The notes under the pieces: model-generated
The model's input: the letters and a program-made list of their open reading frames with translations, nothing else
Told to the model about the DNA's origin: nothing
Databases searched by the model: none
Source: Clostridiales bacterium
GTDB lineage: Bacteria; Bacillota; Clostridia; Lachnospirales; Lachnospiraceae
Assembly: GCA_021201035.1 (NCBI GenBank)
Contig: JAJQFQ010000069.1
Span: 1-34,328, forward strand
Direction of reading: 5' to 3'
Length of the DNA: 34,328 nucleotides
Position numbers and translations under genes: made by a program
In this document: positions 3,984 through 33,298 of the stretch, one piece after another
Layout of the letters: each line of letters opens with the position of its first letter
Numbering within the stretch: position 1 is the stretch's first letter

Positions 3984-4533
3984 TCATGATTCCATTTGTT
4001 TTCCGAGAAAACCGGCAGCGGTCTGAACAAGTTTTTCCTGTGTACTGCCGGATGTCTCCCGTTCTTCTCTGCTGTACATAATGACGGCGCCGACGGCGTC
4101 GCCTTCGCTGATGATGGTGCTGATGGCCTGTGTCTGATAATCAGAATGGTCGTCTGCGGTGATTTTTACAAAATTTTCGTCATTTTTTTGCGGCTACCCG
4201 ATGGATGCGGTTCTGTATCATTGATTCTAATTGCTGACTGATCTGTTTCCCGTCATAATCTTTTTTTCCGTTTCCGGCGGCGGCAATGATATGGTCGCGG
4301 TCGCTGATGCAGACGAGACAGCCCATAGTCTGGGCCAGACTTTCCGCGTACTGACCGGCAAATGCGGAGAGTTCTCCAATGGGAGAGTATTTTTTCAGGA
4401 TGATTTCACCCTCACGGTCGGTGTAGATTTCCAATGGGTCCCCTTCACGGATCCGCAGCGTGCGGCGGATCTCTTTTGGAACGACGACACGGCCTAAATC
4501 ATCGATGCGCCGCACGATTCCTGTAGCTTTCAT
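3984..4533 (-). pseudogene. spoVT: SpoVT (AbrB-family sporulation regulator), frameshifted at an A7 tract
   Basis: MKATGIVRRIDDLGRVVVPKEIRRTLRIREGDPLEIYTDREGEIILKKYSPIGELSAFAGQYAESL... from 4533. The frame hits TGA at 4182-4180 immediately after seven A's. Removing one A continues as NDENFVKITADDHSDYQTQAISTIISEGDAVGAVIMYSREERETSGSTQEKLVQTAAGFLGKQMES* ending at 3984, matching the SpoVT GAF-like C terminus. Confidence 0.85.
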
Positions 4534-4617: not shown

Positions 4618-4875
4618 TCAATGTCTAGTTGACGTAAATTCTTGACACGGCATCCGAAAGGGTATAATGTAAAAACAATCCGAGGGAACGTCGGCAAGAT
4701 GCGCTTTCATGTCCATATCAAAGAACTGCGCCATCTGAGCGCCCCACATTTCTTCGAACTCCGGTGTGCACTGCTCTGTCGGATTAAAACGGCAGGGTCC
4801 CTCATAGTAATACTTGTGAACAAGCCCGAGATAAATGGGACGGATGTTCAGTTTGATGTCAATACCTTTTTGAAT
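4618..4875 (-). CDS. Short, probably truncated protein fragment (86 aa)
   Basis: MIQKGIDIKLNIRPIYLGLVHKYYYEGPCRFNPTEQCTPEFEEMWGAQMAQFFDMDMKAHLADVP with a good RBS (GAAGGAGGAATCATTCATG). The C-terminal ~20 residues look non-native. Confidence 0.45.
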   Translation of the reverse strand: MQKGIDIKLNIRPIYLGLVHKYYYEGPCRFNPTEQCTPEFEEMWGAQMAQFFDMDMKAHLADVPSDCFYIIPFRMPCQEFTSTRH

Positions 4876-5017
4876 CATGAATGATTCCTCCTTCGTTTTT
4901 AAGTACATTCATTATAAATTGAGGAGGAAAAACCGGAAAGGTAAAGAATGTATCTGATTAAATTATGTTTTTTTGAAATAAGATACAAATTGTACCATAT
5001 GAAATTCCTTTTGGGAT

Positions 5018-13443: not shown

Positions 13444-13878
13444 ATGAAAAAATACACGGATGCACAGCTGCTCCGCTTTCTTGAGCAGGAACCGCAGAGG
13501 GGCATGGTTCTTCTTATGGAGTCTTTTACCGGCCTTGTCTGGAAGGTCGCTTCTCTTTATTTGTCTAATCCGGAGGACGTCAGAGAATGTACGAACGATG
13601 TTTTTGCGGAATTTTATTTTCATATGGATTCATATGACAGTGAGCAGGCGCCTCTGGCGGTCTGGCTGGCTGCGATTGCCAGAAATACAGCGATTTCCCG
13701 TTATCGAAAGGAATTGCGTCATCAGACGGATGTACGGGACGCGGAAGTCTCCGTTGACTGTGTGATGCTGGAATTCGCGGAGGCAAAAGCGGATCTTGCA
13801 CAGGCAATGGAAACGCTGCGTCCGGATGAACAGCAGATCATCCGGATGAAGTATTATGATAATATGACGATTGTCTGA
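13444..13878 (+). pseudogene. Sigma-70 family (ECF-like) RNA polymerase sigma factor, truncated in region 4
   Basis: MKKYTDAQLLRFLEQEPQRGMVLLMESFTGLVWKVASLYLSNPEDVRECTNDVFAEFYFHMDSY...WLAAIARNTAISRYRKE...LRPDEQQIIRMKYYDNMTI then V-stop; the sigma4 DNA-recognition helix is missing. Confidence 0.75.
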
Positions 13879-15331: not shown

Positions 15332-15439
15332 TTTTATGTGTTTAAGAAATGATTAAGAGTTCTTCTTTCATTTTCACAAGATTGTTTCGATATACTGTAT
15401 CATAGTATATCAAACATGATGGGAGGAGGAAGATTTCCT

Positions 15440-18304
15440 TTGAAGAAGAAAAGATTTTACGCAAAATGGGCGAAGCTTCTGGTGGTGGTTATCCTGTCTG
15501 CTGCTTCTTTTCTCGCAGGTCTGTCCGGAATGCGTATCGTGCAGGGGTTGCGTATCGGCATGACTTTTTCGGAGATTGTGCACGGCACGAGTTATGAGGA
15601 GAGTGATTCCGCGGCAGCATATCTGTATGAGGAGGGAGTTACCCTGCTGGATACATGGCAGAACCGGGATATATTCTGTTCCGGCGGCACCGCTTATGAT
15701 GAGACGATGACGATCGATATCGCAAATCTGAGCGCCGGAGTGGACAATGAACAGAAGGATCCGGACACGACCTATGCGCTGGCGGATCTGGCAGCGTTTT
15801 ACGGGTCGGAAAATTATTACCGGCTTATGTTTCTGACGGATTATGCGGTAGTGTATGCCTCGGAGTGGGGGGGGGAGAATGAAGTCGAGGAAGGGGCAGA
15901 GGATACTGACAGTTCAGACACGAATGTGGCGCCTGATACGGCAGCAACGGAGGCATCGGCGGATGCCGCGGGTGATGTTTTTACGGACGCGGATGCCGGG
16001 GAGATAGATCCGGATGCGACGGTTTACGAGACGGTGACGGTGTATCTGGAATACGGACTGACCGATGCGGATTACATGGTAGATGAGAGCGGTGAGGCGG
16101 GAGAGGCGTACCGGTTCCGGGTGTACAGTACCGAAGACAATATCCTGTATAATAACGGACTGGAGTTAGAGGAAGAGTCGATTCTGACCGCTTCCGGCAC
16201 GACGCTGGCGGAACTGGCGCGGACGACACAGGATACCAATTCGCCGGTCCTGCTTTGGGACAGTTATGTACAGCTGCTGGACGCGGCGGAACAATTGAAT
16301 GAATATTTTCTTTCACAGGACTCGGTTGATACGAATACGAATGCGATGCTGTATCTGAAAAATACTGACACGGGAGAGGTCTATACAAACATATCCGACT
16401 GGCAGAGTCTGGAGTTGTGGGAGATCCAGAATATTTACGGCAACGAGTACTATGATACCAATGATATGTTCGGCCTGTTTTGCAGTCTGACCTGTGATGA
16501 GGAAGGGAATCCGACATGGGAATGGTCGGGAACCCATATTGACGCTTACGGCAGTGATTTGCTGGACTACGCGGAAGAACTGTTCGGGGAGGGAAACTGG
16601 GAGATGTATCTGGCGTTGGATACAACCTGGCCGCTGACATCCAGCCAGTCCTACACAGATATGCAGCTGTATCAGTGGTGGAATGATATGTCGCCTTTTG
16701 GTCCGCTGAATACGGTGTTTGCCTTTTTCACGATGCTTGCACTGGCGGCAGTTATGCTGGTGCTGCTGTCCTGTCAGACAGGGCATCGGCAGGAAGATGC
16801 GGACATTCACCCGGCTCCGATGGATCGATTTCCGATTGAGATCATGATACTGATGGATATTCTGTTCTGGTTTATTCCGGTGTATATTGTTTATTCCGCT
16901 GTGGCAAATTCAAGCTGGTATTATTTTGAGGCGCCGGTTAATTACGGAGGCTATATCAAATTGATGATCGCCGGAGCGGCCGGCACCGTTCTCGGCGCGT
17001 TGCTTCTTGCGTGGGAACTGAAACGTTACGGCCGGCGCATTAAGGAACATTCTGTCAGAGGCAGTCTTGTGGTAAGAATTGCCGGAGGGATACGCAAATT
17101 GACGGAAATAGCCGGGAACACTATGCCGGAAATCCGTCGGATCAAGGTTAAATATCTCATCTTTGTCATCATTCAGTATGCGGTTCTGTTTCTGGCAGCC
17201 GGATTCTGGTGGCGTTGGTGGGGGTGGTGGTCAAACAAGGCATTTGCTGTTCTTTTGTGGGCAGGTCTGTTTTTCTTTGACCTGTATGTCTGGTGGAAGC
17301 TGATGCAGCGTGTCTCCGGACGGGAGATGATCAAAAGAGGGATGAAGGAACTCGGCGAGGGTAATCTGGATTATCAGGTGAATGCTGCTGTGCTACAGGG
17401 CGAAAACCGTGAGATGGCGGAGGTTTTGAATAACATGCAGGAGGCTGTCCGTCGTGCGGTGGAGGTCGAGATGAAGAGCGAACGCTTAAAGACGGACCTG
17501 ATTACCAATGTCTCTCACGATATCAAGACGCCCCTGACGTCCATCATCAACTATGTGGATATCCTGAAGCGGGAGCATCTGCCGGATGAACGGATTGCCG
17601 GGTACATCGAGATATTGGATCAGAAATCCCAGCGTCTGAAACAGCTGACGGACGATCTGGTGGAGGCGTCAAAGATCAGCTCGGGGGTTATCACGCTGGA
17701 TATGCGGGAGATTGACCTGAAACAGCTGATTAAGCAGGCGAGCGGAGAGCTCGATGATAAGTTTCAGAGCAGGAATCTGCAGCTTGTCCTGAATCTGCCT
17801 GATGAGGAGATGCGGATCCGCGCCGACGGGCGGCGCATGTACCGTGTGATTGAGAATCTTTTCAATAATGCGGCAAAATATGCCATGCCGGCTTCCCGCG
17901 TCTATGTGACCGGCAGTATCCGGGATAACCAAAACAGCAGATTCGGGGACAACAGAATCGAAAACGATGAAAGTCCCGGAAGCAAAAGGATTGGCGGTAT
18001 CGGCGATGCCGGCAATGGCAGAGCCGGAAATAACAGTATCTGCCGGAGCAGGGTTTCCTTTGAAATCAAGAACATGTCGGAGCATGAGTTGAATTTCAGC
18101 GCGGAGGAGCTGATGGAGAGGTTTGTGCGGGGGGATATCTCCCGGACGACGGAGGGAAGCGGTCTCGGTCTGGAGATCGCGAAGAACCTGACCACGATGC
18201 AGGGCGGTGATCTGGAGATTTATCTGGACGGTGATCTGTTTAAGGTGACGGTGATCTTTGACGCATTTATACCGGAAGAAACTGTTTCGGTTGAGCAGGT
18301 ATAA
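15440..18304 (+). CDS. Membrane sensor histidine kinase with large acidic extracellular domain
   Basis: HisKA (TNVSHDIKTPLTSIINYVDIL), N-box (VIENLFNNAAKYAM), G2 (EGSGLGLEIAKNL). One N-terminal and several central TM segments. TTG start after GGGAGGAGGAAG; longest ORF begins at 15416. Confidence 0.93.
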   Translation: MKKKRFYAKWAKLLVVVILSAASFLAGLSGMRIVQGLRIGMTFSEIVHGTSYEESDSAAAYLYEEGVTLLDTWQNRDIFCSGGTAYDETMTIDIANLSAGVDNEQKDPDTTYALADLAAFYGSENYYRLMFLTDYAVVYASEWGGENEVEEGAEDTDSSDTNVAPDTAATEASADAAGDVFTDADAGEIDPDATVYETVTVYLEYGLTDADYMVDESGEAGEAYRFRVYSTEDNILYNNGLELEEESILTASGTTLAELARTTQDTNSPVLLWDSYVQLLDAAEQLNEYFLSQDSVDTNTNAMLYLKNTDTGEVYTNISDWQSLELWEIQNIYGNEYYDTNDMFGLFCSLTCDEEGNPTWEWSGTHIDAYGSDLLDYAEELFGEGNWEMYLALDTTWPLTSSQSYTDMQLYQWWNDMSPFGPLNTVFAFFTMLALAAVMLVLLSCQTGHRQEDADIHPAPMDRFPIEIMILMDILFWFIPVYIVYSAVANSSWYYFEAPVNYGGYIKLMIAGAAGTVLGALLLAWELKRYGRRIKEHSVRGSLVVRIAGGIRKLTEIAGNTMPEIRRIKVKYLIFVIIQYAVLFLAAGFWWRWWGWWSNKAFAVLLWAGLFFFDLYVWWKLMQRVSGREMIKRGMKELGEGNLDYQVNAAVLQGENREMAEVLNNMQEAVRRAVEVEMKSERLKTDLITNVSHDIKTPLTSIINYVDILKREHLPDERIAGYIEILDQKSQRLKQLTDDLVEASKISSGVITLDMREIDLKQLIKQASGELDDKFQSRNLQLVLNLPDEEMRIRADGRRMYRVIENLFNNAAKYAMPASRVYVTGSIRDNQNSRFGDNRIENDESPGSKRIGGIGDAGNGRAGNNSICRSRVSFEIKNMSEHELNFSAEELMERFVRGDISRTTEGSGLGLEIAKNLTTMQGGDLEIYLDGDLFKVTVIFDAFIPEETVSVEQV

Positions 18305-23452: not shown

Positions 23453-25018
23453 ATGGATTTTAACAGGACGCAGATTCAGATGGACAGAAGGAAGGGAACT
23501 GTATCAACGCAGGTAACCTTTGACGAGGCATATAACCTGTCGGACTATCTTCCGGATATATATTCTGTTATTTTAAGCGGCGGGGAAGTACGGATCGATG
23601 AGGTGAAAACGGGAACGGGTCATGTGATGGTGAGAGGTGCGGTACAGTTTCGCGTTTTATATAAGACGGATCAGAATGAGTGGAAAATCAGCAGTCTGGA
23701 AGGGGAGCTTGCGTTTCAGGAGACACTGTCCGCGCCGGACCTGTGTGAATTTGATATGGTGACGGTTGAACCGGTGCTGGAAGATCTGTCCTTTCGTATT
23801 TCTAATTCCAGAAAATTGAATATCCGTGCGCTTCTGGAATTGAGAGTGATGCTCCGGGAACGGTTCGATGCGGAGATCCCGACAGCGTTTGAGACGGAAA
23901 TTCAGCCGGAAGTAATGAAGGAGGAGTATGATTTCCTTGAGATGAAGTACTATGGCAAGGAAAACTGCCGTATTCATGAGGAAATACGGTTGCCCTCAAA
24001 TAAACCCAATATACAAAAGATGTTGTGGCAGCAGACGCAGGTTTTAGGAACGGAGGAACGCCTGTCTCCCGGCATGCTTGATATCCAGGGAGAACTGCAG
24101 ATCCTGATTGTTTATGTCGGCGAGGAAAACAGCAGCCTGCAATGGTTTGCGGCAAAAGTTCCGTACCGCTGTGAATTTGAAATTCCGGAAGCGGAGAGCA
24201 CGATGGTGCCGTATATCATCACGCAGGTTCAGAATCTGTCCTGCAGTCCGCAGAGTGATGAGGATGGGGAATCCAGAGTGATTCTAGCGGAAGGCGAGCT
24301 GCATGCGGATGTCCGCCTGTATAAAGAAGAAAAAAAGGAGCTGATTGCTGATGCATACGCGTTAGACCGACATCTGATTCTGAAAAAAGAAACCTGTATT
24401 TTCCCGGAACTGCGTATGAAAAACGAGTCTGAGTGCCGGGTAAACGATACGATAAACATACAAAATCAGGAAAGCGGTATCTTTCAGATATGTGCCGGTT
24501 TCGGTGAAGAAGAAATTGACCGGACGACAGTTACTGAGGAAGGCATTCTGGCAGAAGGGGCGGTTCGCATCCGGCTTCTTTATCTGACAGATCGTGATAA
24601 TACTCCGCTGGAAGCAGCGGAAGGGGTGGTTCCCTTTCAATATCTGATTGAGATACCGGGTATACTGTCGGAAGATGATGTGGAACTGCAGCATTCACTG
24701 GAAGCCTTGTCTTTTCTGATGAAAAACAGCGGGGAGGTTGAAATTCAGGCTGTTGTCTGCTTAAAGACCATGGTGACCGGTTCCCGTGAACTGGATGTGA
24801 TACAGGAGATACAGGAGGAGGATTTTAAGATTGAGGAGTTAAATACGCAGCCCTCGATCGTCGGACTGACACTGGCGCCGGGGGATTCTTTGTGGGAAAT
24901 TGCGAAAAAATATCACACGACGACCGGACAGATACAGCAGATCAATCAGCTGGAAAACAATAAAGTTTTCGGAGGCATGAAAATCCTTCTGATTAAACAA
25001 CTGCCGAAGAGGGCATAA
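23453..25018 (+). CDS. DUF3794 (SPOCS) and LysM domain protein, probable spore-associated
   Basis: SPOCS-type repeats and C-terminal LysM (PSIVGLTLAPGDSLWEIAKKYHTTTGQIQQINQLENNKVFGGMKILLIK). Confidence 0.88.
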   Translation: MDFNRTQIQMDRRKGTVSTQVTFDEAYNLSDYLPDIYSVILSGGEVRIDEVKTGTGHVMVRGAVQFRVLYKTDQNEWKISSLEGELAFQETLSAPDLCEFDMVTVEPVLEDLSFRISNSRKLNIRALLELRVMLRERFDAEIPTAFETEIQPEVMKEEYDFLEMKYYGKENCRIHEEIRLPSNKPNIQKMLWQQTQVLGTEERLSPGMLDIQGELQILIVYVGEENSSLQWFAAKVPYRCEFEIPEAESTMVPYIITQVQNLSCSPQSDEDGESRVILAEGELHADVRLYKEEKKELIADAYALDRHLILKKETCIFPELRMKNESECRVNDTINIQNQESGIFQICAGFGEEEIDRTTVTEEGILAEGAVRIRLLYLTDRDNTPLEAAEGVVPFQYLIEIPGILSEDDVELQHSLEALSFLMKNSGEVEIQAVVCLKTMVTGSRELDVIQEIQEEDFKIEELNTQPSIVGLTLAPGDSLWEIAKKYHTTTGQIQQINQLENNKVFGGMKILLIKQLPKRA

Positions 25019-32296: not shown

Positions 32297-33298
32297 ATGG
32301 AGCAAAGAAAAACTTTGCAGGAACTGACACTGTTAGACCGGTTTTTGTTTAACGAGACCATGGAAAAACCGGAAAATATGCAGGCGATGCTGGAGATTAT
32401 TCTGGGAAAAGAGATTGTACTGAAATACCTGCCCCAGTCGGAGAAAGAACAGTGTACATCCCCTGTTTTTCGATTTGTGAAGCTGGATGTGTGGACACAG
32501 GATACTGAGGATGTGATTTATGAGGTTGAATCCCAGCAGAGTAATACGGGAAACCTGCCGAAACGCAGTCGTTATTATCAGTCCGTGATTGACAGTAAGC
32601 TTTTGGAACCGGGCATTGATGATTTTAATGTGTTGAATCCTGTTTGCGTGATTATTATCACTCCGTTTGACCTTTTTAAAAAGAAGAAGTATTTGTACAC
32701 TTTTACCATGAGATGCAGGGAATCAACTGATATAGATCTGAATGACGGAGCAGTGCGGATTTTCCTGAATACACATGGAAATGATGATGAAGGAATCAGT
32801 CAGGATTTGAAGGAACTTTTATATTTTATAGAGCACACGAATGATCAGAATAAGATTTTTCAGAGTGAAAAAGTCAATCAGATCAGGCAGAGTGTCCGGG
32901 TGATTCAGAATAACGAGGAGGTGAGTTTGCGCTATATGCAGGAATGGGAAGAAAAATTGATATTTAAGCGAGAAGGGTTGCGAGAGGGCAGAGAAGAAGG
33001 AAGGAAAGAAGGAAGAAAAGAAGGAAGAAAAGAAGGAAGGAAAGAGGGCAGAGAAGAAACTTTGAAAGAACTTCAGCCAAAGCTTGATAACGCAGAGCGT
33101 GGACGAAAGGAAGCGGAGCGCAAATGGAGCGAGGCGGAAAAGGAAAAAAGCAGGTTAGAACATGAAGCATATGAACGAGAGGTACAGATTTTTCTGAATT
33201 TACTTCATAGTGGATTATCGCAGGAGAAGGTTCAGTGTTATATGAATAGCAGAGAGGACATTGCAAAAGAAGCAATGGAGAGATTTCGGACAGAGTGA
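32297..33298 (+). CDS. Rpn family / PD-(D/E)XK nuclease-transposase-like protein
   Basis: LQELTLLDRFLFNETMEKPENMQAMLEIILGKEI; nuclease-like core FVKLDVWTQDTEDVIYEVESQQ; NVLNPVCVIIITPFDLFKKKKYLYTF; EGR(K/E) repeats. Confidence 0.85.
   Translation: MEQRKTLQELTLLDRFLFNETMEKPENMQAMLEIILGKEIVLKYLPQSEKEQCTSPVFRFVKLDVWTQDTEDVIYEVESQQSNTGNLPKRSRYYQSVIDSKLLEPGIDDFNVLNPVCVIIITPFDLFKKKKYLYTFTMRCRESTDIDLNDGAVRIFLNTHGNDDEGISQDLKELLYFIEHTNDQNKIFQSEKVNQIRQSVRVIQNNEEVSLRYMQEWEEKLIFKREGLREGREEGRKEGRKEGRKEGRKEGREETLKELQPKLDNAERGRKEAERKWSEAEKEKSRLEHEAYEREVQIFLNLLHSGLSQEKVQCYMNSREDIAKEAMERFRTE
32984..33055 (+). repeat. Six 12-bp in-frame repeats (EGR[E/K]) in the order A-B-C-C-B-A
   Basis: GAGGGCAGAGAA GAAGGAAGGAAA GAAGGAAGAAAA GAAGGAAGAAAA GAAGGAAGGAAA GAGGGCAGAGAA. 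Confidence 0.95.

Follow-up and report, generated by a model that had tools for sequence, protein, structure and literature searches.

Is the frameshift in the spoVT gene of this Lachnospiraceae genome (G000) a mutation of the living organism, an error of the assembly or a device of gene expression? The gene is located on the minus strand of the window, the 34,328-nucleotide stretch of DNA analysed here, and reads ATG AAA GCT ... GTA GCC GCA AAA AAA TGA CGA. The earlier note had described an interruption by one extra A in an A7 tract, a length of about 182 amino acids after removal of that A and a downstream frame free of further stops. All three statements were borne out. The zero frame comprises 116 codons and ends at a TGA directly after the run. 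The C-terminal 65 codons (DENFVKITADDHSDYQTQ...TAAGFLGKQMES) continue in the +1 frame, in which the first stop is a TGA at 3986-3984. No start codon was seen in the C-terminal frame near the break. The program-made ORF of 145 amino acids (4617-4180) has 28 additional codons ahead of position 4533, where SpoVT starts.

The NCBIfam model TIGR02851 (spore_V_T) matches both pieces, with profile positions 1-109 on the first and 116-180 on the second. A match of TIGR01439 at residues 8-49 (52.5 bits) places the AbrB-type domain at the N-terminus. The SpoVT_C domain (PF15714) is divided between two frames and does not lie as a whole in the frame of the N-terminal domain. The joined product of 182 amino acids aligns end to end with SpoVT from Bacillus subtilis (PDB 2w1t; query 1-181, E=1e-54). 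The two are collinear over 181 of 182 residues if both frames are read, and share the start MKATGIVRRIDDLGRVV. In contrast to the B. subtilis gene, spoVT of G000 carries one extra A, and its last third is out of frame. Judged by these matches, the locus is a spoVT gene, though not an intact one. The product of 116 amino acids has lost most of the C-terminal domain and is presumably non-functional (Table 1).

Table 1. Coordinates in the window of the spoVT gene, its parts and its A-runs.
Feature	Position	Strand	Basis
spoVT, frameshifted, 182 codons if continuous	3984..4533	-	TIGR02851 in two frames; PF15714 split matches; PDB 2w1t
A7 run abutting the in-frame TGA (4182-4180)	4183..4189	-	A6 in relatives with the same codons
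Truncated product, 116 aa: AbrB-type DNA-binding domain and first part of the C-terminal domain	4183..4533	-	TIGR01439, TIGR02851
Orphaned C-terminal frame	3984..4190	-	TIGR02851 116-180; low dN; frame analysis
Second A7 run of spoVT, in frame (GGA AAA AAA GAT)	4261..4267	-	Homologous run in G007 is A6 and frameshifted

Three further features were recorded in the window. A short ORF on the minus strand directly upstream of spoVT (4618-4908) has no match in Pfam or NCBIfam and may be a gene remnant. A G9 run (15867-15875) lies in frame inside an ORF for a histidine-kinase-like protein of 962 amino acids (15416-18304) and is a candidate for length variation. An ORF on the plus strand (32297-33298) contains repeats of the (REGRKEG)n type and resembles Rpn-family nucleases/transposases.

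The named relatives most similar in spoVT suggest that the organism is a gut member of the Lachnospiraceae. The gene was compared among 20 genomes of the genus including G000, with one genome per species. A spoVT match was found in 16 of the 20 genomes (G000 counted) and none in the other four. It is open throughout in 14 of the 16, that is in 14 of the 15 matches outside G000, and broken only in G000 and in G007, where a different run is affected. The comparison with orthologs proposed in the earlier note revealed no stop at the G000 break site in the genus genomes with a match. Relatives with the same codons at this site (GCA AAA AAC/AAT) have A6, namely G018, G007 and L028. In G013 the register differs (GAA AAA AAC) and the run is an A7 that stays in frame; a length of seven is therefore not abnormal per se. 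The remaining relatives have interrupted runs, e.g. AGA AAT or AAA GAC. G007 keeps A6 at the break site of G000 and has lost one A elsewhere, where GGA AAA AAA became GGA AAA AA. Different A-runs were hit in the two genomes, which indicates that spoVT was broken twice and independently.

In the orphaned C-terminal half of the G000 gene, dN is 0.10-0.21 versus a near-saturated dS of about 1 or above. The control pair G018-G017 has a dN of 0.083, and low dN is retained in both halves of the G000 gene. By these substitution rates, the orphaned half still bears the mark of purifying selection. Few amino acid changes despite near-saturated synonymous change suggest a recent break. Three origins had been offered for the interruption, an assembly indel, a very recent mutation and slippage or phase variation. 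The constrained orphan half and the intact relatives best support the very recent mutation; slippage or phase variation found no support as a means of decoding.

Such decoding would imply that spoVT is still expressed in full, by transcriptional slippage on the A7 run or by +1 ribosomal frameshifting at AAA UGA C. A +1 shift yields exactly the C-terminal frame, and a C follows the UGA stop, a weak stop context which is used in prfB. However, a rescue needs the loss of one A or the gain of two, and transcription in Escherichia coli mainly inserts and rarely deletes bases in A/T runs (PMC5574713). Shifted by -1, the ribosome would add only MTKIL before a stop. Re-initiation was considered for an ATG in AAAATGACG, which lies in the -1 frame and leads to the same short peptide. 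No obvious Shine-Dalgarno-like stimulator was found upstream of the break (CATCGGGTAGCCGC), and nothing resembling a programmed +1 signal was seen. Relatives possess an ordinary, single continuous frame, and neither an interrupted architecture nor a shift motif is conserved. The view of the A-run before the stop as a site of transcriptional slippage found no support, given the rare deletion slip that it needs, the short -1 product and the poorly conserved run. Decoding rescue of spoVT is unlikely, to a degree that leaves it hardly any weight.

Gene comparisons drew on ~584 kb of G000, about a quarter of the genome, and ~930 kb of G007. They revealed that spoVT is not the only frameshifted gene of G000. 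The sigE gene (G000:C18 4654-5402, L105) has changed from A7 to A6 and is intact in all four congeners examined. On contig C157 (L226), spoIID carries a T7 to T8 change at ~5553, and an unnamed gene a T6 to T7 change at ~890. A serine recombinase is frameshifted from T7 to T8 and the polyphosphate kinase gene ppk1 from T8 to T7. An oxidoreductase-like gene just upstream of mutS (L275 ~130) shows T5 for T6 relative to G003 and to the frame of G018. The latter lesion and that of mutS itself are located on a contig reached by targeted search. Altogether, eight lesions including spoVT were found, all of them single-base gains or losses in A/T runs and four of the eight in sporulation-related genes. 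No clear nonsense mutation was seen among the examined G000 genes.

Untargeted comparison yielded five A/T-run frameshifts in ~184 kb of G000 coding DNA and none recognised in ~148 kb of mutS-intact congeners (p about 0.05, a small sample). Six split alignments in the congener set were judged by position, and only L249 was fully resolved: the T-run split first placed on this G003 locus is actually a lesion of G000. Other candidates were discarded. The split alignments L106, L129, L139, L166, L198, L206, L231 and L243 represent antisense, upstream or intergenic extensions, as judged by position and by the lack of family matches. An apparent frameshift in spoIIE has its break upstream of the likely start.

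As a separate observation, sigK of G000 is apparently present in two pieces (C234 1977-2255 and C201 3150-3452). The pieces are on different contigs, and the serine recombinase adjoins the N-terminal one, as in skin elements. G004 and G007 appear to have the same arrangement.

Among the lesions, that of mutS lies in a mismatch-repair gene. The gene (G000:C165 8412-11025; L266, L275) has expanded from A5 to A6 at GAGAGCAAAAAATAA, which creates AGC AAA AAA TAA where relatives read AGC AAA AAT. The remaining frame of 767 codons is open. Most congeners have an open mutS. Besides G000, it is frameshifted in G007 (A8 to A7) and in G009, there outside an A/T run. G004 carries a mutL interrupted at an A8 run (C96 ~13621-13774, L264). 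A broken mutL was also reported for G000 and rejected: the TAG in question sits between mutS and the start of mutL, and the 492 codons seen are open. The mutS or mutL breaks of G000, G007 and G004 occur at different places and are hence independent. In the mutS tree these three genomes group together with G003, which is intact and whose pairing with G000 is weakly supported.

Fifteen genomes were readable for both genes. Among these, spoVT is broken in two of the three with a broken mutS versus none of the 12 with an intact mutS (p = 3/105 = 0.029, for a pairing picked after seeing the data). Both genomes with a broken spoVT, G000 and G007, have a frameshifted mutS, and 12 of the 13 other testable genomes are intact at both genes. 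G009 has a broken mutS, yet its spoVT is intact. The pairing of broken spoVT with broken mutS in these sequences is suggestive.

A real and recent A6 to A7 expansion which inactivated spoVT in a mismatch-repair-deficient lineage with dispensable sporulation is, on balance, the probable explanation, and we hold it with restrained confidence. The loss of mutS by its own frameshift (A5 to A6) would have switched off mismatch repair. Slippage at A/T runs would then go uncorrected, and single-base frameshifts would build up because repair is broken. They would be fixed where their cost is low, and sporulation genes would be natural victims in a gut lineage: repeated losses of sporulation are documented for gut Firmicutes, Lachnospiraceae included (Browne et al., 2021, PMC8340488), and two species of the genus, G006 and G014, lack all the sporulation genes that were tested. 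The spoVT lesion would be tolerated since gut bacteria may dispense with sporulation. With sigE and spoIID frameshifted as well, the cells should not form spores. The assembled sequences show the lesions, their distribution and the intact relatives; from these we infer that the organism truly carries the lesions in its DNA, has lost mismatch repair in life and makes no spores. Several points speak against the mutator lineage. Single-base changes in A/T runs without nonsense mutation are also expected from errors of the homopolymer consensus. The numbers are small, and each species is represented by one genome. In addition, G009 combines a broken mutS with an intact spoVT, and most of the spore genes examined in G000 are intact.

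An assembly or consensus error is the main rival, because the evidence consists of assembly sequence from one genome per species. Wrong homopolymer lengths in a metagenome-assembled genome would mean that spoVT, sigE, spoIID, ppk1 and mutS are intact in the organism. All confirmed lesions consist of one base gained or lost in an A/T run, both gains and losses occur, and no clear nonsense mutation was seen. The G000 assembly comprises 235 contigs and is 92% complete. The many short contigs suggest a short-read assembly, which argues against such errors. Short-read assemblies usually call runs of A6-A8 correctly. Other findings point in the same direction. No lesions were found in essential genes: trpS, rpoD, dnaG and tilS have A/T runs of 7-8, all of them in frame in G000, a set too small for statistical power. 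The sporulation-related share of the lesions is one half (stated without a p-value), and the ~148 kb of mutS-intact congeners contain no recognised frameshift of this kind. None of this evidence against an artefact is decisive; the artefact is unlikely, with a weight that still has to be reckoned with.

Decay of sporulation could also proceed in a lineage with functional mismatch repair. Ordinary spontaneous indels in A-runs would then pile up under relaxed selection. Within the genus there are examples of loss: G006 and G014 have an intact mutS and lack every sporulation gene tested, namely spo0A (as a full match), spoVT, spoIVA, sigG and spoIIE. Both are probably non-sporulating species. However, decay alone leaves the broken mutS in both spoVT-broken genomes unexplained, as well as the lesions in ppk1, the oxidoreductase and the unnamed gene. 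We regard it as improbable.

The state of the sporulation genes in G000 differs from that of established losses. The likeness to the published cases (PMC8340488) is that spore genes are lost in host-associated lineages. Unlike those cases, G000 represents an early stage with single-base lesions in otherwise intact genes, plus a lesion in mutS. Intact genes include spoIVA, spoIIE, spoIIGA and a SipL-like gene. With most of the examined sporulation genes intact, the loss is not advanced. The window itself encodes an intact SipL/SPOCS and LysM protein of the spore coat morphogenesis type (23453-25018, plus strand), and the spore set is partly whole. No spo0A, spoIVB or sigG gene turned up in G000; their expected places are beyond contig ends. 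Their absence was rejected as a sign of loss. The recN gene, which lies next to spoIVB-spo0A on the upstream side in G007, is found right at the terminus of contig C60, and contig C180 ends before the position of sigG. Frameshifted sporulation genes in sequenced spore-formers, real or due to sequencing error, have been described, and the part of that work considered here makes no link of such frameshifts with mismatch repair (Galperin et al., 2012, PMC3533761).

The A-runs of spoVT, and those of sigE and mutS, might instead be contingency tracts which toggle sporulation, perhaps via a switchable mutator state. Consistent with this, spoVT was broken independently in two species at two different A-runs, and mutS or mutL was struck at A-runs in three related species. 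All changes amount to one base, and the frames beyond them are still open. Homopolymer switching occurs in this phylum: swrA of B. subtilis contains an 8-nt run (PMC13228054), and a one-base slip inactivates the gene as in spoVT of G000. The swrA run is known for slippage, whereas the A6/A7 run of spoVT is poorly conserved and shows no sign of reverting. A contingency locus would usually have longer runs than these of 5-7, and the run at the spoVT break site lacks the conservation across the genus expected of an unstable repeat. Contingency tracts are very improbable. Equally remote is a broader scheme, in which A-run slips in mutS or mutL repeatedly disable mismatch repair and the resulting mutator silences sporulation genes, potentially in a reversible manner. 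If true, slippage would control whether the bacteria spread as spores or grow as residents.

A frameshifted spoVT on its own is ordinary. The lesions in mutS, sigE and spoIID, together with the mutS/spoVT pair in a second species, suggest a testable route of sporulation loss in gut Firmicutes, in which a mutator phase comes first and A/T runs in coding sequence then slip. Verdicts on sporulation from gene presence alone would overlook genes broken in this way.
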